Assembly: GCF_002795265.1 (NCBI RefSeq)
Contig: NZ_CP024870.1
Location: forward strand, 1,240,001 to 1,304,000
Length of the DNA: 64,000 nucleotides
Reading direction: 5' to 3'
Source of the DNA: Spiroplasma clarkii
GTDB lineage: Bacteria > Bacillota_I > Bacilli_A > Mycoplasmatales > Mycoplasmataceae
The notes under the pieces are model-generated. The model was given only the letters and a program-made list of their open reading frames with translations. It was not told the DNA's origin and did no database searches. Both the position numbers and the translations under genes were made by a program. This document shows positions 12,519 through 45,566 of this stretch, one piece after another (within the stretch, counting starts at the first letter, position 1; each line of letters opens with the position of its first letter).

Positions 12519-14474
12519 TTAATCATATGTTTTGTTGATTATTTTGTTTGTCAATATTTTAATAAATTCAGTTAGTGAAACTGTAATTTGTTCTTCACTA
12601 CCATATTTTCGGTAAGTGACAGTTTTTTCTTCTTGTTCTTTTTTTCCTAAAACTAATTGGAAAGGTATTTTTTTAACTTGAGCATCTCGAATTTTGTAAC
12701 TTAATCTTTCATCACGATTGTCAATTCCAGCTCTAATTTTTGCTTGTTTTAATGCTTTTCAAACTTCATCAGCATAGGCTGCATTTAATTCTTCATTAAC
12801 TGGGATGATTTCTACTTGTTTTGGAGCACATCATAATGGTAAAACTCCTTTGGTTTGTTCTAATAAAACAGCAATAAAACGTTCATAAGTTCCAATCAAT
12901 CCTCTGTGAATCATAATTGGTCTTTCTTTTTCTCCAAGTGCATTAATAAATGCTAACTCAAATTTTTGTGGTAGTAAGAAATCTAATTGAATTGTAGAAA
13001 CTGTAATTTCATGACCAATAGCAGTTCTAGCTTGGATGTCAAGTTTTGGACCATAAAATGCAGCTTCTCCAGGCATTTTTTTATAGTCAAGTTTCATTTC
13101 TTTTAAAACTTCTTCAAGTTCAGCCTCAGCATGATTTCACATTTTATCATCATCAAAGTATTTTTCTTTGTTTTTTGGATCACGCAAAGATAAAGATAAA
13201 TAATCTATTTTAATATTAAATGTTGCTAAAACCTCTTGAATTAAGTTAAAACAACGAGCAAACTCAACTTTAACTTGATTTGGTCTCACAAATATATGTG
13301 AATCAGTCAATTCCATTGCTCTAACTCTCTCTAATCCTGTTAAACTACCTGATGACTCGTAACGGTGTTGTAAGGCATGTTCTGCAAATCTTAACGGTAA
13401 GTCTTTGTAACTTCTTTGTTTGTAATTATAAACTGAAATATGGTGCGGACAACTCATTGGTTTTAAAACCATTTCTTCTTTTGGTAATGCCATCGGGGCA
13501 AACATATCTTCTCGGTAATGATCTCAGTGTCCTGAAATTTTATAAAGTTGAGAGGTACCAATAACTGGGGTTTCAATTTGAATAAAATCATAATCAAACT
13601 CTTTTTCCATTAGATACTTTTTAATTTCTTGTTTTAAAATAGCTCCATTAGGTAATCAAATTGGTAAACCAGCGCCAATAATAGGATCTAAATGATATAT
13701 TTCAAGGTTTTTGGCAATGAACTTGTGGTCACTTGCTTTAATTTCTTCTAGTTCTGCTTTTAACTGGTTTAAACGAGTTTCACTAGTTTCAGCAATTCCA
13801 TGAATTCGGTAAGTGATTTCCCCACTGGCATCATCTTCAAGTTGTAAACCAGAAAGTTGAGTTAACTCAATTTTGAATAAACTTTTTGTACTTGGTAACA
13901 AAGCATTTCTTGCCAAAAAGATTACATCTCTCACTAAAACTGTTGGCATTTTAATATAATCTTTAGAATTCATATCAACTTTTGTATCAACATTAACACA
14001 GCCATCTGCTTTGACTTGTTTCATGTACTCTGCTTCATTGGCATCACCTGGATAAAAGTATTTAAAATCATAACCTAAACCAATGAAAGAGTTTGCTATT
14101 TCTTCAATTTTTTTTAAGTCTTCAAATTTAATTCCCTTGGGAGATTTAAAATAGGCACTAAACTCATGTTCAGTTAAGTCATCATCAGGCATCATTGGGT
14201 AACCTTCAGGGAAAACTGTTTTTAAAGCAAAAGTTGTTAGTACTTTAGCAGTATAGTTAATTGCTGTTTTGTAAAGGGCATGTCTTTCTGTGATTATTTC
14301 TAGTTTGCAATCTTTACTTAAAACTGCTCCATTAGGAACAATTTTTTTATTATTGATTACAGCTCCAATACAATTCTTTTTTAAACTGACTGCAATACTT
14401 TCAGCAATAGCTAAAACTGTCATTGGTTGTTTGAATTCTTTAACTTGTCCATCTAGTAATGTTATTTTCATCAT
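12519..14474 (-). CDS. thrS: Threonyl-tRNA synthetase (editing site degenerate)
   Basis: A 651-residue class II synthetase that charges tRNA-Thr. Order: TGS domain (1-62), a second domain in the position of the editing domain (63-230), catalytic core and C-terminal anticodon-binding domain. The active-site zinc ligands are kept: Cys in LKPMSCPHH, His in TDSHIF and His in MIHRGLIG. In contrast, the editing domain has lost the HxxxH and CxxxH quartet: the first region reads [10 protein letters not shown] and the second ARNALLPST. The enzyme is therefore expected to charge but not to clear Ser-tRNA-Thr in cis (inference from family knowledge). Two in-frame ATGs are adjacent; 14474 follows AAAGGAA at good spacing. 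No T-box leader is visible upstream. Confidence 0.95.
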
Positions 14475-14794: not shown

Positions 14795-14824
14795 AAAAAA
14801 ACAGAAACTTAAAAGCTCCTGTTT
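14795..14824 (-). terminator. Terminator of the first array lipoprotein
   Basis: Arms AAACAG and CTGTTT, extended inward by G-U and A-T pairs around CTT/AAG, followed on the minus strand by T7. Confidence 0.7.
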
Positions 14825-14923: not shown

Positions 14924-15568
14924 TTATATTATTTCAAATAATTCAGTGCTGTCAATAACATCTACATCAATTGTAACAGGTTGAACATCAGCAACATCAG
15001 ATGAAACTGTAATTGTTGCATCACCTTCAGCTACTGCAACAATTGTAAATTTACCATCAGTTTGAGTTGTGTCTGCTGAAATTTCTACTGCATTATCACC
15101 TGAAGTGATAGCAACAGCAATTGAATCAAGTTCTGCAAAGTTTGCAATAGTAAATTCTTTTGTTGAAGTACCATTTAAGTCTAATTCTACATCACTATCA
15201 TCTAATTCAATAACAAGGGTATCTAATGGAGTTAAAATGTCTGCAACTGTAAATTCTGCATCATCACCAGTAACTAGAGTATATCCTTCTGCAAGAGTGA
15301 ATCCAATGTTTGCAGTTGTTTCTATGGTAGTATCTCTAGATACTGTTCAAGTAGCAACCTCAACAATTGTTTCATCACCATTTAATAATGATTGTAATGC
15401 AGCAACTGCCATTGATGGTTTACCATCTAATAAAGCATCAACTTTGCCTTTGATGCTATCAGTAGTAACTGTGGTATCTGTTTTTTCATCTTCTCCACAA
15501 GCAACTACAGCAGATCCTGTGCTGGCAACTAAGCCAGTTGCTGCTAGTAATCCTAATAATTTTTTCAT
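14924..15568 (-). CDS. Array lipoprotein 1: repeat module plus C-terminal Ig-like domain
   Basis: A 214-residue lipoprotein: signal MKKLLGLLAATGLVASTGS, lipobox VVAC followed by Gly. The mature chain starts with one copy of the array's repeat (about 30-105, with the GYTL...FTVADIL end pattern), followed by a beta-rich Ig-like (BIG2-like) domain with FTIANFAELDS, KFTIVAVAEGDATITVSSD and VTIDVDVID. This is the reverse order to array lipoprotein 4, which has the Ig-like domain first. Function unknown; a surface adhesin or cover protein is plausible. It has its own promoter (TTGTAA-16-TATAAT) and terminator, and an AAAGGGAA ribosome-binding site. Confidence 0.87.
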
Positions 15569-15618
15569 ATATTTTTATTCCCTTTCATACATGTAGCATA
15601 ATATTATGCCTAAAAATT

Positions 15619-15659
15619 ATTATACATATATTTTCGTTGTTTACAACACAAAAAGTGTT
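15619..15659 (-). promoter_or_regulatory. Promoter with AACAC-N5-GTGTT dyad, array lipoprotein 1
   Basis: Minus strand -35 TTGTAA (15641-15646) and -10 TATAAT (15619-15624) with 16-nt spacing. A perfect dyad AACACAAAAAGTGTT (15645-15659) overlaps the -35 box. Confidence 0.65.
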
Positions 15660-15702
15660 AAAGTTGAAAATAAATCCGTGTGTTCTAAGTTAACTGGAAT
15701 AA

Positions 15703-15734
15703 ATAAAAACTATTCAAATTGCTTTGAATAGTTT
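15703..15734 (-). terminator. Terminator of array lipoprotein 2
   Basis: A 12-bp stem AAACTATTCAAA/TTTGAATAGTTT with a 4-nt loop, followed on the minus strand by TTATTT. Confidence 0.8.
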
Positions 15735-15784
15735 CAAATATCTCTCCTTTAAATTGAATTTGCAAAGATAAGTGTTTCATTTAC

Positions 15785-17194
15785 TTATTCTACTATTAAG
15801 ACATTTTTCAGAGTAAAAGTATCTTCTCCTTTTAAAACGTAGCCTGGTCTTAATTTAACAGTTACCAAAACATCAGCTAATCCAAGACCTTTTTCGCTAG
15901 CAGTTAAACTAGCCACTCCTATAAAATGGAAAGTGTCATCTAAGTATTCTTGAAATGAGTTTATGTCACTAAACCCAGAGCTAAAAACAAGTCTTTTATC
16001 AATAATTGTTTTAAGACCTGAAGATGCAATTTCTTGTCCTGTTTGAGTCTCTTTGACTGTTAAGACATTTTCAAGACTAAAAGTTGCTTCACCAACTAAA
16101 ACGTACCCTGGTTTAAGAATAATGGTTATGTTTACATCAGTTGATTTTGGTGCTTGTTCACTTACTTCCAACCTTTCCACTCCAGAAATAGTTATGTTAT
16201 CTAATCGTCATTGTAGTTCATCAATGTCATTGAATTTGTTGTTGTTAATTGCAAGTGAAGTAATAGTTTTAATAAAATCAATAGTAATTTCTTCTGGTTC
16301 TGGTTCAATAGTTTCTTCTACTATTAAAATGTTTTCAAGTCTAAAAGTAGGTTCACCCACTAAAATATAGCCTGGTTTAAGGATAATAACAGCATTGACA
16401 ACCATCGATTTTAATGTTTGTTCACTTACTATCAAATCTTGCACTCCAAAAATATTTAAGTTACTTAAAAATTCTTGTAATTTAGTAGTATTTTCAAACT
16501 TTTTTGAACCAATTTGTTCTAAAACACTATTTCTAACAGTGTCACTGTTGATTTTAAAATCTTCTGTGTCCGGAATTGAGTTATTGAAAAGATCAGTAAC
16601 TGTAAATGTTGGTGCTCCAACTAATTTATAAAAATCTAAAACCTCAACTGCCACAGTGGCAGTTGTTGGATCTGTTTTGTCAATTGTAGCAGTTAAACTA
16701 GCAATTCCCTCAATATTTGCTTGAACCAAAGTTAATAAGTTATTTAACTGTGTTTCAAAGTCATTAGTAAAAACTTCATAATTTTTACTTGCTTCAACTA
16801 AAGCTGTTTGAATACTTGCTGTACTAACTTCTGCAAAGACTTCCACATTAATACCAATTCTATCACCAAATGAAGCTACTTCAATTCATGTTCGTCCTGC
16901 AGTTAACCCAGTTATTACAAAACGCCCATTAGCATCAACACTACTTACTGCAGCTACCTCCTCATCATTTGAATGAATTTGGGTTTCACCAAGATTAACT
17001 AAATTTGCAATTGTAACTGCTTTTGAGTTATCCATAGCAGTTACACCCAATCTTACTGTTTCTTCAGAAAAATCTAATTCAATTTCTGCAATACCTCCAG
17101 CAACTTGCCCTAAATTGTTGTTGCATGCAACAACAGCAGATCCTGAACCAGCAACTAACCCTGTTGCTCCCAGTAATCCTAATAATTTTTTCAT
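15785..17194 (-). CDS. Array lipoprotein 2: Ig-like domain plus multiple repeat modules
   Basis: A 469-residue lipoprotein with lipobox VVAC|N, the largest of the array. An Ig-like region (about 30-120, with AVTIANLVNLGETQI and RFVITGLTAGRTW) is followed by four copies of the shared module, each ending in a pattern such as GYVLVGEATFSLENVL or GYVLKGEDTFTLKNVL. The modules alternate a helical part with short strands. The ATG at 17194 is preferred over the upstream in-frame ATG at 17209 because the GGAGG ribosome-binding site lies between them, 7 nt before 17194. Function unknown. It is closely related to the truncated neighbour (array lipoprotein 3). Confidence 0.87.
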
Positions 17195-17237
17195 ATATTT
17201 GCCCTCCATATATGTTTTCGTTTTTTTACCTACATAT

Positions 17238-17265
17238 ATTATACACTTTTTTGTGTATTTTACAA
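17238..17265 (-). promoter_or_regulatory. Promoter with CAC-N6-GTG dyad, array lipoprotein 2
   Basis: Minus strand -35 TTGTAA (17260-17265), -10 TATAAT (17238-17243), 16-nt spacer. The spacer holds CACAAAAAAGTG (17244-17255), directly beside the -10 box. Confidence 0.65.
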
Positions 17266-17364
17266 CAAATAAGTGTTATAATTAATTGTAAAAATTTTGT
17301 TTATATCTTATTAAAGATTAATTTATGCCTTACTCACATTAAAACTCTAAATAACAAGTCATTA

Positions 17365-17396
17365 AGTAAAAAGCAGAAACATAACTGTTTCTGCTT
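17365..17396 (-). terminator. Terminator of array lipoprotein 3
   Basis: A perfect 10-bp stem AAGCAGAAAC/GTTTCTGCTT with a 6-nt loop, then a T-run on the minus strand. Confidence 0.82.
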
Positions 17397-17471
17397 ACAA
17401 AATATGCAGTTGTTAAAGGTTGTTGAAACTATAACTTACTAAAATAGCTGTTTTAAATACATTTAATAACT

Positions 17472-17819
17472 TTAAGTTATTAAACTCTTTAATTCATTTT
17501 CAATGCTTCTTGCAAAATTATCATAGTCTTCACTAGCATCAATTAAGGCTGTTTTGATGATCTTTGTATTAATAATACATGTTGTTTCAAGAGTTCTATC
17601 TTCTAAACCTATTGAGATCTTATCAAAATTCACTGATCTTGAAAGTAAAGGATTTAAACTATGTTCTTTAGTTAACCCTAATGCAAGTCCCTTTTCAAGC
17701 AAACTTAGCTCACTAATTGAAATTGCCCCCTTTACTTCATTACTTTCACATAAAGTTTGTTTAACTCCTGTACTTGCAACTAGCCCTATTGTTGCAGGTA
17801 ATTCTAATAATTTTTTCAT
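17472..17819 (-). CDS. Array lipoprotein 3: short, probably decayed paralog of lipoprotein 2
   Basis: Only 115 residues. The signal peptide is altered (MKKLLELPATIGLVASTGVKQTLCE) and the expected VVAC lipobox is replaced by QTLC, so lipidation is doubtful. The final third (IINTKIIKTALIDASEDYDNF...ENELKSLIT) matches residues near 125-165 of array lipoprotein 2 (VSTASIQTALVEASKNYEVF...ETQLNNLLT), where the ORF then ends at TAA. It keeps a good promoter, a GGAGGG ribosome-binding site and its own terminator. The most likely reading is a 3'-truncated, decaying duplicate; a small secreted protein is the alternative. Confidence 0.6.
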   Translation of the reverse strand: MKKLLELPATIGLVASTGVKQTLCESNEVKGAISISELSLLEKGLALGLTKEHSLNPLLSRSVNFDKISIGLEDRTLETTCIINTKIIKTALIDASEDYDNFARSIENELKSLIT

Positions 17820-17860
17820 ATATTCACCCTCCATATATGTTATAATTAATTATCTTTAAT

Positions 17861-17889
17861 ATTATACACTTTTTTTGTGCATTTTTCAA
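17861..17889 (-). promoter_or_regulatory. Promoter with CAC-N7-GTG dyad, array lipoprotein 3
   Basis: Minus strand -35 TTGAAA (17884-17889), -10 TATAAT (17861-17866), 17-nt spacer containing CAC-A7-GTG next to the -10 box. Confidence 0.65.
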
Positions 17890-18020
17890 CATATTCAAAA
17901 AGTAAGAAGTTGACGATTGTCAGCTAATAAATTTATAAAATAAAACAGTTTTCTTTACAATGCTTGGTTTAATTAAGGTGATGTATAAAAGTCTGGATTA
18001 AACTAGGTGTTTTAAAATAA

Positions 18021-18052
18021 TAAAAAACTGCCCAAATAAATTTGGACAGTTT
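18021..18052 (-). terminator. Terminator of array lipoprotein 4
   Basis: Arms AAACTGCCCAAA and TTTGGACAGTTT (one mismatch) with a 4-nt loop, then a T-run on the minus strand. Confidence 0.75.
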
Positions 18053-18093
18053 AAAAAATGTTTACTATAAAATTAATACATTATTTAATTGTA

Positions 18094-18996
18094 TTAATCA
18101 GCTTCAATATCAGTATCTAAAACACCTTCAAGTGTAAATGTTAGTGCTCCAACTAATACATAGTTTTCTTCATCAATTGTAATGGTAACAATTGCATCTC
18201 CTGATATTTCATCTTCTACTGCAATTAAGCTTTCAACTCCATCAATAGTTATACTTGCTAGTTCTTCATTTAGCAATTCAATAGTAGCAAATTTTGCACC
18301 ATCAATTTGTCCAACAACTTCTGCACTAATATCCTCAGATGAAATTTCAATTTTATTACTTGGTTCAGTTACTTCTAATACACCTTCAAGTGTAAAAGTT
18401 GTAGAACCAACTAAAGTGTGAGTACTTGCAACTGTTATAGTAACAATTGCATTCCCTGGTGTTGTGTCTGCTACTGCAACTAAACTAGTAACTCCATCAA
18501 TTTCAATTGCTGCTAGTGCTGCATTTAACAATGTAAGATCAGCGAACTCATCTTCACCTTCAAGTTCTGCTTTAACAGCTGCTTCAATGCTTTCACTTGA
18601 AATTTGTTCTTTTGATGAGTCAATTACATTTACTGTAATTTCTACAGACTCAACATCTTCAATATCAGAAGTAATAGTAACAACTGTGTTACCTTCTTGA
18701 ACTGCTATTAATGTAAATTTACCTTCTTCACTAACTTTAACTTGATTTACTAAAACAACAGCTGGATTTGCTTGTGCAATATTTAGTTCTCCTAAGTCTG
18801 CAAAGTTTACAATAGTAACTTCTTTTTCATTTTCTCCTGCATCCACTGCAGTACTAATATCTAGTGTTACTGTATTTGATGTAAGATCTAAATCAATGGT
18901 AACAACATCTGGAGTGTTTTCTCCACAGGCAACTACTACAGATCCTGTACTTGCAACTAACCCTGTTGCTGCAAGTAATCCTAATAATTTTTTCAT
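18094..18996 (-). CDS. Array lipoprotein 4: Ig-like domain plus two repeat modules
   Basis: A 300-residue lipoprotein, signal MKKLLGLLAATGLVASTGS and lipobox VVAC|G. Residues 33-128 form an Ig-like (BIG2-like) domain with EVTIVNFADLGEL, KFTLIAVQEGNTVVTITSD and VEITVNVID. Two tandem modules follow (about 133-213 and 218-296), each with ISSE, a helix, IxIDGVxSL and an end of the LVG-xx-TFTLEGVL type. The chain is very acidic. Its upstream sequence is nearly the same as that of array lipoprotein 1. Surface structural or adhesive role is a guess; no catalytic motif is seen. Confidence 0.88.
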   Translation of the reverse strand: MKKLLGLLAATGLVASTGSVVVACGENTPDVVTIDLDLTSNTVTLDISTAVDAGENEKEVTIVNFADLGELNIAQANPAVVLVNQVKVSEEGKFTLIAVQEGNTVVTITSDIEDVESVEITVNVIDSSKEQISSESIEAAVKAELEGEDEFADLTLLNAALAAIEIDGVTSLVAVADTTPGNAIVTITVASTHTLVGSTTFTLEGVLEVTEPSNKIEISSEDISAEVVGQIDGAKFATIELLNEELASITIDGVESLIAVEDEISGDAIVTITIDEENYVLVGALTFTLEGVLDTDIEAD

Positions 18997-19050
18997 ATAT
19001 TTTATTCCCTTTCATACATGTAGCATAATTTTAATTTATGCTTAAAAGTA

Positions 19051-19092
19051 TTATTACATTAATTTCCGTTATTTGCAACACAAAAAAGTGTT
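19051..19092 (-). promoter_or_regulatory. Promoter with AACAC-N6-GTGTT dyad, array lipoprotein 4
   Basis: Minus strand -35 TTGCAA (19073-19078) and -10 TAATAA (19051-19056), spacer 16 nt. A perfect AACAC/GTGTT dyad with A6 between (19077-19092) overlaps the -35 box, as for lipoprotein 1. Confidence 0.55.
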
Positions 19093-19136
19093 AACTTTAA
19101 AATTATACTCATTTGTTTGAAACTAAGTGATATTAA

Positions 19137-19169
19137 ATGAAAAATGCCTCATTGGGTTTGAGGCATTTT
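19137..19169 (-). terminator. Terminator of array lipoprotein 5
   Basis: An 11-bp stem AAAATGCCTCA/TGAGGCATTTT, 7-nt loop, T-run on the minus strand. Confidence 0.85.
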
Positions 19170-19189
19170 ACTAGTATTTTTAAAAAACT

Positions 19190-20284
19190 CTAATTGCTAT
19201 TAATTAATATATCAACTAGTTCAAATGAATTAAAATCTGGGGAAATTCAATAGTTTTCATCAACATCAATGACAATCTTTGCATTATTTGTCCCCATTTC
19301 AGCTTCTGCAAAAAAACCAAAGACCCCAACAATTAAAGATTTTACTTCATTAAGTTTCTCTTGCAATAAGTCTATTGAAGCAAACTTTTCTTGTGCTAAA
19401 ATTTCTAAGACAACAATTTCCACATCATCAGTTTCAAGTGTTATTGGACTATATACATTAAACATAATAAAAATGTTATTACCATCAAACATATAACCTT
19501 GTTCAAAATCAATAGTTAAGGTTATCATTCCAGCCGCAGACCCTACTTTAACATCCCAATCAATAACTTTGTCTAGATGAAATTGATCTGGAGACTGTAT
19601 CATTGGTTCAGTACCTAAAATTTCAGTTAACATTAATGTCACCCCAAAAAAGCCAGTTAAAGCATCTTTTTCAAATTCTTCTTCTAGTCAAGCTCTAAAT
19701 TCACTGGCTCTAATTGTAACTGATTGAATCTCAATTTCTATAACAAATCTGTGGGTAATTATCCCTGTCTCAATAAATTGATATTCATTATTTAAAGTTA
19801 TAACAATTTCATAATCATCAGCCTTATTATTTAATATAATTGATTTTACTGAGTCAAAATTAGATTTTAAATCAGCAAAATAGTTTCTAGCCTCATTGAA
19901 ACTTGCAAATGTAGTTAAACTGGTTTTAATTGCATTTTCAAGACTTTGACTATCAACAAAATAATTTGTAATTGCATCTTTTATTTCAAAAGTCTTGTCT
20001 TCTTCATCAAGAGTGTAACCTTCAACTAGTGAAATTGTTACAACTACATCTGTTAATGAACCTTCCTTTAAAACTGCAGTCAGGTCTTCCAAACCAGTAA
20101 GTTTTACAGATTTTAATCTGCTATTTACTTCTGCTAAATTTTTAGATTTTTGTAGTTCCTTAACTGCAGTAACTATTGTGTTCTTGGTAATTGCTGATGC
20201 TGTTACTTGTTCACATGCAGTAACAAAATTTAAACCTGAGGTCACTAAACCTGAGGTTGCAAGCAATCCTAATAATTTTTTCAT
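19190..20284 (-). CDS. Array lipoprotein 5: one repeat module plus long C-terminal region
   Basis: A 364-residue lipoprotein, signal MKKLLGLLATSGLVTSG, lipobox VTAC|E. One module (about 33-103: ITKNTIVTAVKEL...GLEDLTAVLKEG, then VEGYTLDEEDKTFEIKDAI) is followed by a C-terminal region of about 250 residues, shared with array lipoprotein 6 (for example SFNEARNYFADLKSNFDSVKS against SFSAARVYFSDLASNFDSVKT). The two are tandem duplicates of almost equal length. The ATG at 20284 is chosen because AGGA lies 8 nt upstream; an upstream in-frame GTG has no better site. Function unknown. Confidence 0.87.
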
Positions 20285-20328
20285 ATCTTTTATCCTCACT
20301 TCATTCGTATTTATTTAAATACCAATAG

Positions 20329-20350
20329 ATTATAACACTTCTCTTGTGAA
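20329..20350 (-). promoter_or_regulatory. Extended -10 promoter with CAC-N7-GTG dyad, array lipoprotein 5
   Basis: Minus strand TGTTATAAT (extended -10) preceded by CAC-AAGAGAA-GTG at 20336-20348. No good -35 box. Confidence 0.55.
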
Positions 20351-20362
20351 AAATTTAGATAG

Positions 20363-20390
20363 AAAAAACCTCACATAATGTGAGGTTTTT
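20363..20390 (-). terminator. Terminator of array lipoprotein 6
   Basis: A perfect 11-bp stem AAAACCTCACA/TGTGAGGTTTT with a 3-nt loop, followed by T6 on the minus strand. Confidence 0.85.
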
Positions 20391-20463
20391 AGGTAGCAAA
20401 TATATCTATTTGCTATAATTTTTTTATTACAAAAGTGTGTAAAATGAAATTATGTGATTAACT

Positions 20464-21555
20464 TTACTTATTAGTTGAACTAGTGAATACACCTTGTAAT
20501 GCAAGTGGTGAAGGTGTATTCTTTACATAACCATCAGCAAAAATTAACTCCAGCTGAACTAAATTAGGAACCTGTGGATGAATTGAAAGTGAAAAGTCAT
20601 CCACTTTGTTTAAATGAAATTCAGGTGGTGAAGTTATTGTTGAATTTTCTCCTAAAATTTCATTTAGTTTTGCTTCAACTTCTTCAACACTTGTTAGTTC
20701 ATATCCTTTAAGTTCTGTAATAAGTCAACTCTGCAGGTCTGCATGTATAATTGTCACTGAATTAATTGTAAGAGCAATTTCAAATGAATGGTTTTTTACA
20801 TCTTCTATATCAATAAATTCACTATAATCATTTAAAGTGATTTTAATTGTATACTTTTCACTATCTTCTGTTAATAATATAGTTTTTACTGAATCAAAAT
20901 TCGATGCTAAATCTGAAAAATAAACTCTGGCTGCACTGAAACTTTCAAATTCAGTTTCACCATCTTTAATTGTTGTTTCCAATTCTTCACTATCAACAAA
21001 TAAAATAATTGCATTTTCTACCTCAAAAGTATCAATTCCTTCATTAAGAGTGTAATCTTCAACTAATGAAATTGTTACAACTACATCTGTGGTAGAATCA
21101 GCTTTTAAAACAGCAGTTAGACTTTCTAACCCTTTATGTGTTATTGAACCTAATTTCTCATTAACTTCATCTAAGTCTCTTGATATTTCAAGTACTTCTA
21201 CTTTTGCAATGATCATATCTTTTGAAACAATTTTACTGTCAATTGCATTTTCTATCTCAAAAGTATCATTTTCTTCATCAAGAGCATAGCCTTCAACTAG
21301 TGAAATTGTTACAACTACATCTGTGGTAGGTTCACCTTTTAAAACAGCAGTTAGACTTTCTAACCCCTCAATTTCAATCTTAGCTAATGCTGCATTTACT
21401 GCTTCTAGATCATCAAGATCTTTAACTTGTGCAGTTGCAGCAATAATTGAATCTTTTGTAATTGTTGTATCTTGTTCTTCCCCACATGCCACAACAACAC
21501 TTGAGGTTGATGCCACTAACCCAGTAGCAGCTAACAGCCCTAATAATTTTTTCAT
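20464..21555 (-). CDS. Array lipoprotein 6: two repeat modules plus long C-terminal region
   Basis: A 363-residue lipoprotein, signal MKKLLGLLAATGLVASTSS and lipobox VVAC|G. Two modules (about 29-103 and 104-183), both with GLESLTAVLK...STDVVVTISLVE-(G/D)-YTL and a TFE(I/V)-x-NAI end, precede the C-terminal region shared with lipoprotein 5. It has one more module than its neighbour in about the same total length, which suggests module gain and loss by recombination. First gene of the array in transcription order; own promoter and terminator. Function unknown. Confidence 0.87.
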
Positions 21556-21600: not shown

Positions 21601-21620
21601 ATTATAACACTTATTTAGTG
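21601..21620 (-). promoter_or_regulatory. Extended -10 promoter with CAC-N7-GTG dyad, array lipoprotein 6
   Basis: Minus strand TGTTATAAT at the -10 position, immediately preceded by CAC-TAAATAA-GTG, the same arrangement as in lipoprotein 5. Confidence 0.55.
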
Positions 21621-21744: not shown

Positions 21745-23181
21745 TTAAATAATTGTGATTTCTTTGATTTCTTCATTTCTCACAAATAAAATTTTGTCAC
21801 CTTTTTTAGCTCCTCATGATTTAGCAACTTCACAAATTGCTTTTTCATCTCCAAGGAATTTATCAAAATCAGTAACTCTATTCATAAAGATTGAGTGTCA
21901 AATCCCAAAACTTGTTCATAATTTTGGATCTGCACTTACTCCTAAAATAGTAACATTTGGTCTAAATTTTGAAATAGTTTTTAACAGTTCTCCAGTTCTT
22001 GAAGCTACCACTGCATATTCATATTTACCATCTTTTGTTGAAGTAGCAAGTAAATCTGCAATATTAGCTCTTTTACCACTTGTAGTTTTACGAGCAATTT
22101 CTAGTTGTTTTTCATAGTATAATTTACCATAAAATTCAATTTCAGCACGTTTGTTAATTGTTGACATAGTTTCAGTAGTGATAAATGGGTATTCACCATT
22201 TGCTGATTCTCCACTTAACATTGTAGCATCACTTCCCAATTCTGTGGCATAATACACATCAGTTACTTCGGCACGAGTTGGTTGGGGGTTGTCTGTCATT
22301 GATTCTAGCATTTGGGTTGCTACAATTACTTGTTTACCTTTTTCACGACATTTTCTAATAATTTGTTTTTCTCAGTAAGGTACTTCAAAGTAAGGGATTT
22401 CTAACCCTAAGTCTCCACGAGCTACCATAATTCCATCTGAAGCATCAATAATTGAATCAATGTTATCAATCCCAATTTGAGATTCAATTTTTGAAATAAT
22501 TTGGATGTGCTCAGCATTGTTTTCTTTTAAAATTTTTCTAATTTCATTAACATTGTCAGCTGAGTTAACAAATGAAACTGCAATGTAATCAATACCTTCT
22601 TTAATTCCAAATTTAATATCGTTGTAGTCTTTTTCTGCTAAGAAAGGTAGAGTAAAATCAACTCCAGGTAAGTTAACACGTTTATTAGTTTTTACTAAAT
22701 TAGTGTTAAAAGCTTTACATAAAACTAACCCTGGTTTAACATTTGTAACATACATAGTTAGTTTTCCATCATCAACTAAAACAGTGTCCCCAACTTTAAC
22801 GTCTTGAGACATGTCATATGACATTTGTAGTTCATCTGCTCCACATTCTCTGCTAGCAAAGTCAGCTGGATTTGTGTAAACCTTTACTTCTGTTCCTGCT
22901 TTAATTTCTTGTTTACCATCTTTCATTTTTCCAACTCTAATTTCAGGACCTTTTGTATCTAATAGAATTGAAATTGGTTTTTTGATTTCTTCTCTAAGTT
23001 CTTTTACTCAAGTAAATCTTGCTCCATGTTCTTCAAAATCTGCATGAGAAAAGTTTAATCTAACTGTTGTCATTCCTTTATCAAATAGTTCTTTAATTGC
23101 CTCTTTTGAGTGCACTGAAGGACCAATTGTTGTGATTAATTTGGTTCTTTTCACTTTGTCTTTTAAGTTATAAATCTTCAT
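21745..23181 (-). CDS. pyk: Pyruvate kinase, second (downstream) copy
   Basis: A 478-residue pyruvate kinase, which makes ATP and pyruvate from phosphoenolpyruvate and ADP in the last step of glycolysis. Visible marks: TIGPSVHSKEA, DTKGPEIRVGKM, VARGDLGLEIP with the catalytic region, LESMTDNPQPTRAEVTDV and SGESA, and a C-terminal allosteric-type domain of usual length. The N-terminal motif is NFSHADFEEH here, against NFSHGSQEEH in the upstream copy (usual NFSHG). The start follows AAAGGAGACAAAT. It lies 174 bp downstream of the other pyk in the same direction and is clearly a tandem duplicate. Confidence 0.95.
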
Positions 23182-23355
23182 AATTTGTCTCCTTTAATAT
23201 TCAAAAAAATTATATCATTTCCTCTATTTGAATACATCCAAATCTAGAAAAAAAAGTGTTTTCAAGTACTTTATTTAGCTAGATTAAAAGAATTTAGGGA
23301 AAAATTTCAAATCTCAAAATTATTTTAAAAAAAATAAGGTTTTAAACCTTATTTT

Positions 23356-24813
23356 CTAAACTTTAATAACTTTAATTTCATCATTTTTAACCATTAAAAT
23401 TTCTTCGCCTTTTTTAGCTCCTCATGAGCGAGCAATTTCAGCAGCTAGTTGTTGATCACCTCAAACTGCATCAATTTTTTGGGTACGATCCATAAAGATC
23501 GAATGTCATGAACCAAATGCGGTTCACAATTTTTCATCTTCACAAACTCCCAAAATAGTAACATTTGGTCTGAATTTTGAAATAGTTTTTAACAATTCTC
23601 CAGTTCTTGAAGCAACAAGTGCATACTCATATTTTCCATTTCTGGTTACATTGGCTAGTTCATCAGCAATTTCTGCTCTTTTACCTGAAGAGTTTTGGCG
23701 AGCCATTTCTAAGGCACGATCATAATAAACTTTTCCATAAAAACTTACTTCTGCTCTTTTGTTAATAGTGGCCATTGTAGCAGTTGTAATATATGGGTAA
23801 ATTCCAGCTGCTGATTCTCCACTTAACATTGTAGCATCACTTCCCAATTCTGTAGCATAATACACATCAGTTACTTCAGCACGAGTTGGTTGCGGGTTAT
23901 CTGTCATTGATTCTAGCATTTGGGTTGCTACAATTACTAGTTTACCTTTTTCACGACATTTTCTAATAATTTGTTTTTCTCAATAAGGTACTTCGTAATA
24001 TGGAATTTCTAACCCTAAATCTCCTCGAGCAATCATAATTCCATCTGAAACATCAATAATTTCAGCAATATTTAGTAAACCAATTTTTGATTCAATTTTT
24101 GAAATAACTTGAATATGGCTTGCTTTTTCCTCATCTAAAATTTTTTTAATATCTAAAACATTTTGTGCAGTGTTTACAAATGAAGCTGCAATATAGTCAA
24201 CTTTAACTTTGGCCCCAAAACGAATGTCTGAGATGTCTTTTTCACTCAAGAATGGTAATGAAAAGTCGACTCCTGGTAAGTTAACTCTTTTGTTTGTTTT
24301 AACCACATGACTGTTAAAGGCACGACAAATAATTAAACCACTTTCAACATTAGAGACATTTAAAGTAAGTTTACCATCATCAACTAAAACAACATTTCCT
24401 GGTTTTAAGTCAACACTCATGTCATAAGAAACAGTTAATTCACCCTCCCTACATTCACGATTGGTATAATCATTTGGAGTGGTAAAGATTTTGATTTCAG
24501 CTCCGGCTTGGATTTTTTGAGAACCATCAAACATTTTTCCAATTCTAATTTCTGGACCTTTTGTATCCGACATAATTGAAATTGGTTTTTTTAGTTCTTC
24601 TCTTAATTCTTTTGTAAAATCAATTTTTGTTAAATGTTCTTCTTGAGAACCGTGTGAAAAGTTTAAACGTACAACATTCATTCCTGATTCATATAATTTT
24701 CTAATTGCTTCTTTTGAATTTGTACTTGGTCCAATTGTGGTAATAATCTTTGTTCTTTTAATTTTTTGTTCCAATTCACTTGGTTCATAAAATTCAAATT
24801 GTTTCTTTTCCAT
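23356..24813 (-). CDS. pyk: Pyruvate kinase, first (upstream) copy
   Basis: A 485-residue pyruvate kinase with a slightly longer N-terminus (MEKKQFEFYEPSELEQ) than its neighbour. It keeps TIGPSTNSKEA, NFSHGSQEEH, DTKGPEIRIGKM, IARGDLGLEIP, LESMTDNPQPTRAEVTDV and SGESAAG, so it looks fully active. It begins 22 bp after pfkA with a GAGGAA site, so pfkA and this copy share a transcript. Between the two pyk genes are 174 bp without a clear terminator, so the second copy may be read through. Confidence 0.95.
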
Positions 24814-29653: not shown

Positions 29654-31054
29654 ATGAAAAGAAATTATAGAGGTAAAAGACAAATGAAAACCAACAAACA
29701 TATACAAGATATTATTAGGGAGGCTGCTTTATCCAGGGATAAAGCAGCCAAAAGAGAACTTTTGATAAAAAGTGGTGGTAGTAGATCATGGTTTTATGAT
29801 GCCATTAAAAAATACAAAGAAATTGGTGAGGCCTTCTTTATCCACAAAAATAAAAACAATAAGCATGCTCAAAAGCGAACCCATATGCAAGCACTAGAGA
29901 TTAGCAGGATTTTTAGGGATGAGTACTTAAACTGTAATTTTAGGGATTTTATGCGCTATTTAAAAGCAGATAAAAGATATGACTATCAGTGGGTGAGTTA
30001 TTCATATATTTACAATATTTTAAGATCTAAAAATCATTGCTCAAAACTGGCACATAAAAAAACTATCAAATTGTTAGCAAAAGAAGAAGAGTTGAAAAAT
30101 AGACCTCAAAGTCTACTGGTTCCCTCCTCAGCTACAGAAAGAGCAAAAGAAAATATCCATATTGCAAGGCCAAGAACCCAAAGGCGTGGTCATGTTGTTG
30201 AAGCTGATGCTACATTTTGAAGATTCAGTGATGAGGAGATTTGGGCATTGCATGGTTATATTGATGAGGCAAGTGGAGAGGTTTTAGGATTATATTTTGA
30301 TCATCAAGAAACTACTGAAGGTTATTTCAATGCTTTGAAACCGGTCTTAAAAAATTATGGGACTTTTGAAGTGCTAAGAACTGACAAACGCAGAACTTTT
30401 TGGAGTGAAAAAAAAGAATCTTCGCCCGAAGATTCTCGAATTCAGTTTGCATTTGTAGCTAAAAACTTAGGTATTGACATCCAATCATCAATTTCACCAC
30501 AATTCAAACCAAGGATTGAAAGGCTCTGAAAAACCATTAAAGGTACAATCACTACCTTTATGGAACAAAATAAAGTCACAAATATTAATGAGGCCAATCT
30601 AGTCTTACCAAAATTTGTTGAGTATTTAAATAATCATGTTGTAACCCTTCAAAAAGATTTTACTACAAATTCATTCAAAAAATTTGAGGGAGATCTAAAT
30701 ATTATTTTGGGACACAAATCAATTAGAGTGGTTGCAAGAGATCTAACTGTTACCTATGAAAAGAAAAAGTACTTTATATGCAATTTCACAACACCATTAA
30801 ATATACCTAGACGAGAGATTATGATAATTCAATGTTGTGATGGTAACCTTATCGCATCACTTGGTGATAACTATTATAGTATGATTGAATTTGATAATGA
30901 AATGCTCTACAAATCAAAAGTTGTTCTTGAAAATGAAGGAGTGAAACCTGAAGATATGCCACAAAAAATTAAAAACAACTCTGTCTGAGCTCAATCAAAC
31001 TTTATCTTTTTTAAGAAAAAATACTCAAGTTGATATAAAAAGCACTCCTATTAA
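29654..31054 (+). CDS. IS1202-like DDE transposase
   Basis: A 466-residue transposase (437 or more whichever start is used). An N-terminal helix-turn-helix region (about 10-60, KRELLIKSGGSRSWFYDAIKK) is followed by a linker and an RNase H-like catalytic core with Asp in HVVEADATF, Asp in VLRTDKRRTF and Glu in FKPRIERLW. The frame crosses TGA codons as Trp at several points, including within the core (TFWRF, RLWKT), and ends at TAA 31052-31054. The ATG at 29654 follows AAAGGAAA at some distance; ATG 29684, preceded by AGGTAAAAG, is an alternative start. No frameshift or internal stop is seen, so it is probably active. Confidence 0.9.
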
Positions 31055-44870: not shown

Positions 44871-45566
44871 CTATTCTCCACCTTCAGTGGCTGCAGCTGC
44901 TTCAACTGTTACATTAAATTCAACTGATTTAACATCTTTTTTTTCTGATTTAATTGTGATTTTTGATTCCCCAACAGCAACAAATTTAATTGTAATAGTT
45001 TTGTCATCAATTTTAGCAGTAGCAACTGCTTCTTTGTCTGATTTAACTGTTAGTTTTCCTACTTCACCTTTAACTTCAACTGTAATAGTTTTGTCAGCAT
45101 CTCCAACTTTTCCAGTTAGATTAGCTGGTGCAGTAATTGTACCTGCTTCTTGTTCTGGAGCTGGTGCAGGTGCAACATTTGTAGTATCTTTTGCAATAGT
45201 AACATTGATTTTACCAATTTCTTTACCATCATATTTTACAGTAATAACTTCTTTAACTTCAGCTGTTAATGCTGCAGTTTCTGCTTTTAAACCAATTTTA
45301 ACATCAGTTTTTAAAACATCTTTAGTAAATTCAGTAACTTGTTGAGTAGTTACAATTGATTTGTCAGCTTTATCTGATGCAAATTCTAATTTAGTTTTTT
45401 TGTCAACAAAGGCAGCAATTTTAACATCTTTAACAGTGTCTTCTAATTTGTCTTTTGTTAAGGCAACTTTTCCTAATTCATCAACTTTGTCTCCACAGGC
45501 AACAACAGTTGCCCCTGTGCTAGCAACTAATCCAGTAGCTGCTAATAATCCTAATAATTTTTTCAT
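44871..45566 (-). CDS. Lys/Ala/Val/Thr-rich lipoprotein, spiralin-like in size and composition
   Basis: A 231-residue lipoprotein, signal MKKLLGLLAATGLVASTG, lipobox VVAC|G. Mature part: helical/strand region (30-130), an Ala-Pro linker (APAPAPEQEAG), and a C-terminal Ig-like domain (KTITVEVKGEVGKLTVKS...SVEFNVTVE). It lacks Trp and is rich in Ala, Val, Lys and Thr, like spiralin, the dominant Spiroplasma surface lipoprotein of about the same length; homology to spiralin is not shown. Codon use is regular, consistent with high expression. AAAGGAAA precedes the start. It lacks the CAC/GTG dyad of the array promoters. Confidence 0.83.
   Translation of the reverse strand: MKKLLGLLAATGLVASTGATVVACGDKVDELGKVALTKDKLEDTVKDVKIAAFVDKKTKLEFASDKADKSIVTTQQVTEFTKDVLKTDVKIGLKAETAALTAEVKEVITVKYDGKEIGKINVTIAKDTTNVAPAPAPEQEAGTITAPANLTGKVGDADKTITVEVKGEVGKLTVKSDKEAVATAKIDDKTITIKFVAVGESKITIKSEKKDVKSVEFNVTVEAAAATEGGE

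Follow-up and report, generated by a model that had tools for sequence, protein, structure and literature searches.

Surface lipoproteins are the main host contact of wall-less bacteria, and spiralin is the best studied of these proteins in Spiroplasma. Lipoprotein loci of related organisms can switch expression through invertible promoters, as in Mpl of Mycoplasma penetrans, or by slippage in a promoter tract, as in Vmc of M. capricolum. The Vpma (M. agalactiae), Vsp (M. bovis), and Vsa (M. pulmonis) loci have one active promoter and undergo inversion via an adjoining site-specific recombinase (PMC2268961). In Spiroplasma citri, spiralin coats the cell as a lectin-like lipoprotein; it binds glycoproteins of the insect, and adhesion requires it (PMC4804543). 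Here, we analyze six neighboring minus-strand open reading frames (ORFs) at positions 14924–21555 of a 64,000-nucleotide stretch of Spiroplasma clarkii DNA (the window), which is part of a 1.56-Mb single-contig genome and was translated with genetic code 4. We consider it probable (about 70%) that this array is a lineage-specific cluster of paralogous lipoprotein genes encoding an adhesin-like surface coat, which evolves through duplications and domain swaps with no phase variation demonstrated.

A module shared by array genes

Genes 1, 2, 4, 5, and 6 of the array contain copies of a module of ~78 residues. Fifteen candidate modules were excised, profiles were built with each gene left out in turn, and 500 shuffles per gene served as the null. 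Clear copies scored 23–65 bits with these profiles and shuffle maxima were 7.2–14.6 bits, which rules out chance or composition bias as the source of the signal. The module-level similarity that an initial annotation of this DNA had proposed from reading the letters is thus borne out by profile analysis for five genes; gene 3, to which the module had also been ascribed, scored 0.4 bits, below its own shuffles. Rather than one to four copies in every gene, the counts for genes 1–6 are 1, 4, 0, 2, 4, and 4. The domain orders given for genes 1, 2, and 4 stand. Gene 1 encodes a module followed by an immunoglobulin (Ig)-like domain, gene 2 an Ig-like domain followed by four modules, and gene 4 an Ig-like domain followed by two modules, while gene 3 is a remnant and genes 5 and 6 each carry four modules.

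All six ORFs are where they had been placed, but gene 3, one of the supposed lipoprotein genes, is a copy that has decayed and whose lipobox is broken. Alignment by BLAST matches gene 3 to the start of gene 2, relative to which it is shortened. It retains a signal peptide and a stretch that resembles the beginning of module 1; a complete module is absent. This decay fits the expectation for a birth-and-death family. The signal peptides of the array match Spiroplasma lipoprotein models. Genes 1, 2, 4, and 6 score above the cutoff of the NF038029 model; gene 5 falls below it (18.2 vs. 24 bits), yet has a lipobox ending in TAC, and gene 3 fails.

AlphaFold2, supplied with 15 module sequences, produced a compact 78-residue domain of two helices followed by three strands, with a mean predicted local distance difference test (pLDDT) score of 96.7. 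An α-α-β-β-β fold for the single module is therefore confidently predicted. The C-terminal part common to genes 5 and 6, which had been described as a separate region, consists of two blocks that align to the module profile (p = 0.0007 and 0.00023, single comparisons). A whole-protein model of genes 5 and 6, which was built from only two aligned sequences, has an overall pLDDT of 48.7, and was used solely for these blocks, predicts helix-helix-strand-strand-strand in each at low to moderate confidence. From these alignments and models, the shared part most likely represents an additional pair of diverged modules in each gene, which brings the cluster to 11 clear modules and most likely four diverged ones.

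The Ig-like domains of genes 1, 2, and 4 fall below every Pfam cutoff, including that of Big_2 (PF02368). In contrast, other proteins found with the array Ig profile, one encoded at 169 kb in this genome and one in a related species, match Big_2 above the cutoff. The 169-kb gene (L056:1684-2613 and following bases) encodes a Big_2 Ig-like lipoprotein with further Ig-like repeats past a TAA stop and is apparently broken. Another lipoprotein gene in the window (44871–45566) has a weak Ig-like match (E = 3e-4) and resembles genes at 710 and 713 kb.

Duplication and exchange of modules

Evidence for recombination comes from comparisons within the genome and across species, with one genome per species. 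Outside the cluster, this genome contains the module at three other loci (about 424, 689, and 728 kb), each a lipoprotein gene with two modules. Gene 1 and the 424-kb gene, located ~831 kb away, are alike from about –95 through the end of module 1, a region comprising promoter, leader, signal peptide, and module 1. Beyond this point they are unrelated; gene 1 continues into its Ig-like domain and the 424-kb gene into a second module. Between the 689-kb and 728-kb genes, identity is mostly 83–100% in the stretch that runs from about –90 to +320, and in the second modules mostly 50–70%. Within the array, modules 2–4 of gene 6 are the counterparts of modules 1–3 of gene 5; therefore, each gene has one module at the corresponding end that is missing from the other. 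Modules 1 and 2 of gene 6 form a 234-bp tandem with 77% matches. In a module tree, many branches of which are weakly supported and long rows of which are unreliable, modules group mainly by tandem and gene duplication, and the gene 1 module lies beside those of the 424-kb gene. The breakpoint in gene 1, the offset between genes 5 and 6, and the grouping of the tree by duplication support the earlier proposal that the module has been reshuffled through recombination.

A search of mollicute genomes with the module profile, suggested by the initial annotation, found the module in 18 of 60 genomes of the Spiroplasma/Mesoplasma family (E of 0.001 or better); the weakest of these matches are near threshold and may be chance, and one such match sits within an amidase-like gene. 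In a class-level sample, 10 of 395 genomes matched, every one of them in the same family, with none among the sampled Bacilli outside it. In relatives, a lipoprotein-type signal peptide stands at the start of nearly all intact module proteins. Several of these proteins join modules and Ig-like domains in either order, and one protein of 1160 residues has at least five recognized Ig-like domains followed by four modules. Some relatives contain in-frame tandem modules with units of 243–267 bp that are 96–99% identical in DNA.

Three side observations concern module genes elsewhere. A lipoprotein gene of one relative (G071:C1:156435-158351; L136) has about eight tandem units of 243 bp that are 99% identical and each contain a diverged module; this gene is likely a hot spot of copy-number change. 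Another genome (G020:C1) has three single-module matches with identical scores that lie far apart, at 19719, 367085, and 434126, and these may belong to a mobile or viral element. Copies (~99%) of an ISNCY-like transposase gene in the window (29654–31054) occur near the 728-kb module gene and beside Ig lipoprotein genes at 710–713 kb, which suggests a mobile element neighboring the dispersed module genes.

Two points weigh against an adhesin-like coat that evolves by swapping. Array modules are mostly 25–55% identical to each other, so most duplications in the array are old; moreover, the adhesin role comes by analogy alone, and fold searches returned no informative relative. The low identity, the decay of gene 3, and the dominance of within-gene and whole-gene duplication in the module trees are what would be expected from an ordinary fixed set of lipoproteins in which modules are structural spacers and diversity reflects drift after old duplications rather than adaptive shuffling. 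We regard this explanation as unlikely. The similarity between gene 1 and the 424-kb gene ends sharply at the module end, the 689-kb/728-kb pair differs in its second module far more than in its 5′ half, and near-identical tandem modules occur in relatives.

The position of the array was compared among four related species (G014, G008, G003, and G015). Between pyk and thrS, G014 and G008 have phosphotransferase system (PTS) and glycosidase-like genes, and G003 has two unrelated lipoprotein genes; in G015, PTS-like genes precede thrS and pyk is non-adjacent. Because the interval has other contents in these species, the cluster is lineage-specific at this position, where thrS (12519–14474) lies on one side and the second pyk gene (21745–23181) on the other. 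Two adjoining pyruvate kinase genes lie next to pfkA (window 21745–24813), an order kept in G014, G008, and G003.

Relation to spiralin and other families

Sequence searches agree with the earlier statement that the module is not a named domain. No useful score was obtained with Pfam, NCBIfam, or PHROG, and the module is undescribed in the papers found by literature search. The single-module model proposed as a check was compared with known structures. Foldseek against the PDB gave a best E of 0.83, which is uninformative, and a second structural aligner gave a best Z of 4.3, with unrelated folds tied (pantothenate synthetase and type IV-like pilins among them). A viral structure library gave no convincing relative of the module (best E 0.25). 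The best match of the module sequence profile in the PDB, at E of 0.022, was a designed Ig protein and likewise uninformative. These searches do not show that the module fold is new.

Spiralin and spiralin-domain lipoproteins (PF05215, NF038030) resemble the array proteins in several respects: they have the same kind of signal peptide, tandem domains of ~80 residues, and arrays in related genomes. The module could thus be a highly diverged spiralin domain and the locus a branch of the spiralin lipoproteins. Consistent with this relationship, the two domains are of similar length, recur in tandem in lipoproteins, and have a like C-terminal pattern; a profile-profile comparison of the module with PF05215 that extends across the whole domain (p = 0.0013–0.0036) points the same way. 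Spiralin domains are also strongly multiplied in related genomes, including G014 (75 matches, many within ~40 kb at 1129955–1171002), G072 and G073 (54–55), and G008. However, the HH-suite probability of the same comparison is just 14–18%, and the Pfam spiralin model has zero matches in genes 1–6 even at E of 10. Its sole match in this genome is a gene at 89 kb, outside the array. Matches of the NCBIfam spiralin_LP model in the array are far under cutoff and consist largely of the signal peptide. Unlike spiralin, the module is joined with Ig-like domains and its presence is genome-specific, and no spiralin model matches over it. Common descent with spiralin is a minority possibility, which we hold to be doubtful but real. 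The 89-kb gene (L003:1102-2517) encodes a lipoprotein of 471 residues; C-terminally, this protein carries a long repeat of the ETEQP/EKP/NPGTDQN kind.

Lipoprotein_17 (PF04200), found in the P35/Mpl family of M. penetrans, is also a mollicute-specific lipoprotein domain of ~84 residues that occurs in tandem and in arrays. Homology to this domain was considered and rejected (profile p = 0.29, probability 0.2%), and this genome has zero PF04200 matches.

Expression signals and proposed role

Each gene had been credited with its own promoter and terminator. Terminator-like hairpins are indeed located 3′ of all six genes, three detected by scan and three by folding (z –5.6 to –6.3), and a –10-like box precedes every gene at a similar position relative to the start. 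A –35-like box is found before genes 1–4 only, with none identifiable before genes 5 and 6. Because promoter-like matches do not exceed those in shuffles (42 vs. 39), promoter assignments rest on position and on conservation between paralogues. A 22-base leader, ATGCTACATGTATGAAAGGGAA, has five copies genome-wide (≤3 mismatches), all of which precede module genes (genes 1 and 4 and the 424-, 689-, and 728-kb genes). A CAC...GTG element around the –35/–10 region of array genes was considered as a shared operator and is too degenerate between genes to claim. As read from sequence, a promoter-like site and a terminator for each gene suggest that the genes are expressed independently, possibly in a host-dependent way, and are not switched on one at a time.

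This organization bears on the comparison of the array with a variable-surface-protein locus made by the initial annotation. In a contingency locus of the Vpma/Vsp/Vsa, Mpl, or Vmc kind, cells would switch the expressed lipoprotein through phase or antigenic variation. Like Vpma, Vsp, and Vsa, the array is a locus of several lipoprotein genes whose signal sequences are conserved and whose bodies are built from repeats. Its tandem genes with conserved 5′ leaders also recall Vmc, and genes 4 and 6 pass the NCBIfam Vmc-like signal peptide model (NF045726; 22.6 and 24.6 bits, cutoff 19.3). In addition, the promoter spacers of genes 2 and 3 contain an A6/A7 tract that differs by one base. Nevertheless, all array genes lie on one strand with no inverted copies, and each has a promoter-like site of its own, unlike the Vpma/Vsp/Vsa arrangement. 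No long inverted repeats were found bracketing the array promoters. Dinucleotide tracts and homopolymers of ≥8 are absent from the array, in contrast to Vmc; one T9 follows gene 1. No tyrosine recombinase was recognized among window ORFs, a search that used ORF-list names plus Pfam for ten ORFs and did not extend to the genome outside the window; the sole DNA-rearranging gene recognized among them is the ISNCY transposase at 29654, 8 kb from the array. With neither a recombinase in the window, nor inverted repeats at promoters, nor hypermutable promoter tracts, the idea of a switching system is not sustained, and we judge it very unlikely.

Table 1. Coordinates of array features within the window.
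Feature	Position	Strand	Details
Gene 1	14924..15568	-	Lipoprotein, 214 aa, module + Ig-like; LP_plasma 35.1 bits, cutoff 24
Gene 2	15785..17194	-	Lipoprotein, 469 aa, Ig-like + 4 modules
Gene 3	17472..17819	-	Decayed copy, 115 aa; lipobox lost (...KQTLC); half-module remnant 17475-17570 only
Gene 4	18094..18996	-	Lipoprotein, 300 aa, Ig-like + 2 modules
Gene 5	19190..20284	-	Lipoprotein, 364 aa, 4 modules, no Ig; weaker signal peptide (18.2 vs. cutoff 24)
Gene 6	20464..21555	-	Lipoprotein, 363 aa, 4 modules, no Ig
Gene 1 module	15224..15466	-	32.8 bits, leave-one-gene-out
Gene 2 module 1	16580..16825	-	25.4 bits
Gene 2 module 2	16319..16552	-	35.0 bits
Gene 2 module 3	16055..16288	-	53.1 bits
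Gene 2 module 4	15791..16030	-	32.7 bits
Gene 4 module 1	18370..18603	-	46.4 bits
Gene 4 module 2	18112..18345	-	54.0 bits; 78-aa structure model, pLDDT 96.7
Gene 5 module 1	19964..20191	-	65.1 bits
Gene 5 module 2, most likely diverged module	19727..19960	-	Profile p 0.0007, common to gene 6 module 3
Gene 5 module 3, most likely diverged module with insertion	19445..19720	-	Profile p 0.00023, common to gene 6 module 4
Gene 5 module 4	19199..19438	-	23.1 bits; clear module ending gene 5
Gene 6 module 1	21235..21462	-	57.8 bits; in-frame 234-bp tandem with module 2, 77% match
Gene 6 module 2	21001..21231	-	50.7 bits
Gene 6 module 3, most likely diverged module	20764..21000	-	Predicted α-α-β-β-β, pLDDT about 50-66
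Gene 6 module 4, most likely diverged module with insertion	20479..20760	-	Predicted α-α-β-β-β, pLDDT about 57-86
Gene 1 Ig-like domain	14942..15220	-	127 bits, model partly built from this domain
Gene 2 Ig-like domain	16826..17095	-	Ig profile
Gene 4 Ig-like domain	18613..18912	-	Ig profile
Shared block	15233..15672	-	441 bp at 87% with gene at 424 kb; stops at module/Ig boundary (swap breakpoint)
Gene 1 promoter-like site	15619..15646	-	TTGTAA-16-TATAAT
Gene 2 promoter-like site	17238..17265	-	TTGTAA-16-TATAAT
Gene 3 promoter-like site	17861..17889	-	TTGAAA-17-TATAAT
Gene 4 promoter-like site	19050..19078	-	TTGCAA-17-AATAAT
Gene 5 -10-like box	20329..20334	-	TATAAT, clear -35 lacking
Gene 6 -10-like box	21601..21606	-	TATAAT, clear -35 lacking
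Conserved leader ATGCTACATGTATGAAAGGGAA, gene 1	15578..15599	-	22 bases
Conserved leader ATGCTACATGTATGAAAGGGAA, gene 4	19005..19026	-	22 bases
Hairpin after gene 1	14799..14824	-	Terminator-like, scan
Hairpin after gene 2	15706..15735	-	Terminator-like, folding
Hairpin after gene 3	17371..17396	-	Terminator-like, scan
Hairpin after gene 4	18025..18052	-	Terminator-like, scan
Hairpin after gene 5	19141..19169	-	Terminator-like, folding
Hairpin after gene 6	20364..20390	-	Terminator-like, folding

As parts of a surface coat that evolves by duplication and swapping, the intact proteins would each form a lipid-anchored rod of 78-residue modules, three of them with one Big_2-like Ig domain in addition. 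Export would proceed via the lipoprotein pathway and leave the modules facing the host, and homologous recombination or slippage between module copies may be the source of change. By analogy with spiralin, the module proteins may bind surface molecules of the insect host, and host-surface binding is the most likely role of the array proteins. A bolder proposal holds that the module is a new lectin-like host-binding family of the Spiroplasma/Mesoplasma lineage and that the array, together with dispersed 5′ donors, is an active within-species recombination system for coat remodeling; we consider this combination quite improbable.

The locus is a new domain family inside a known kind of gene cluster. 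The module is missing from general domain libraries and is apparently confined to one family, and in relatives as many as eight nearly identical copies stand in tandem. If the module were given a name, dozens of “hypothetical lipoproteins” could be annotated; in the insect and plant associates of this lineage, it is a testable candidate for host-specific adhesion.

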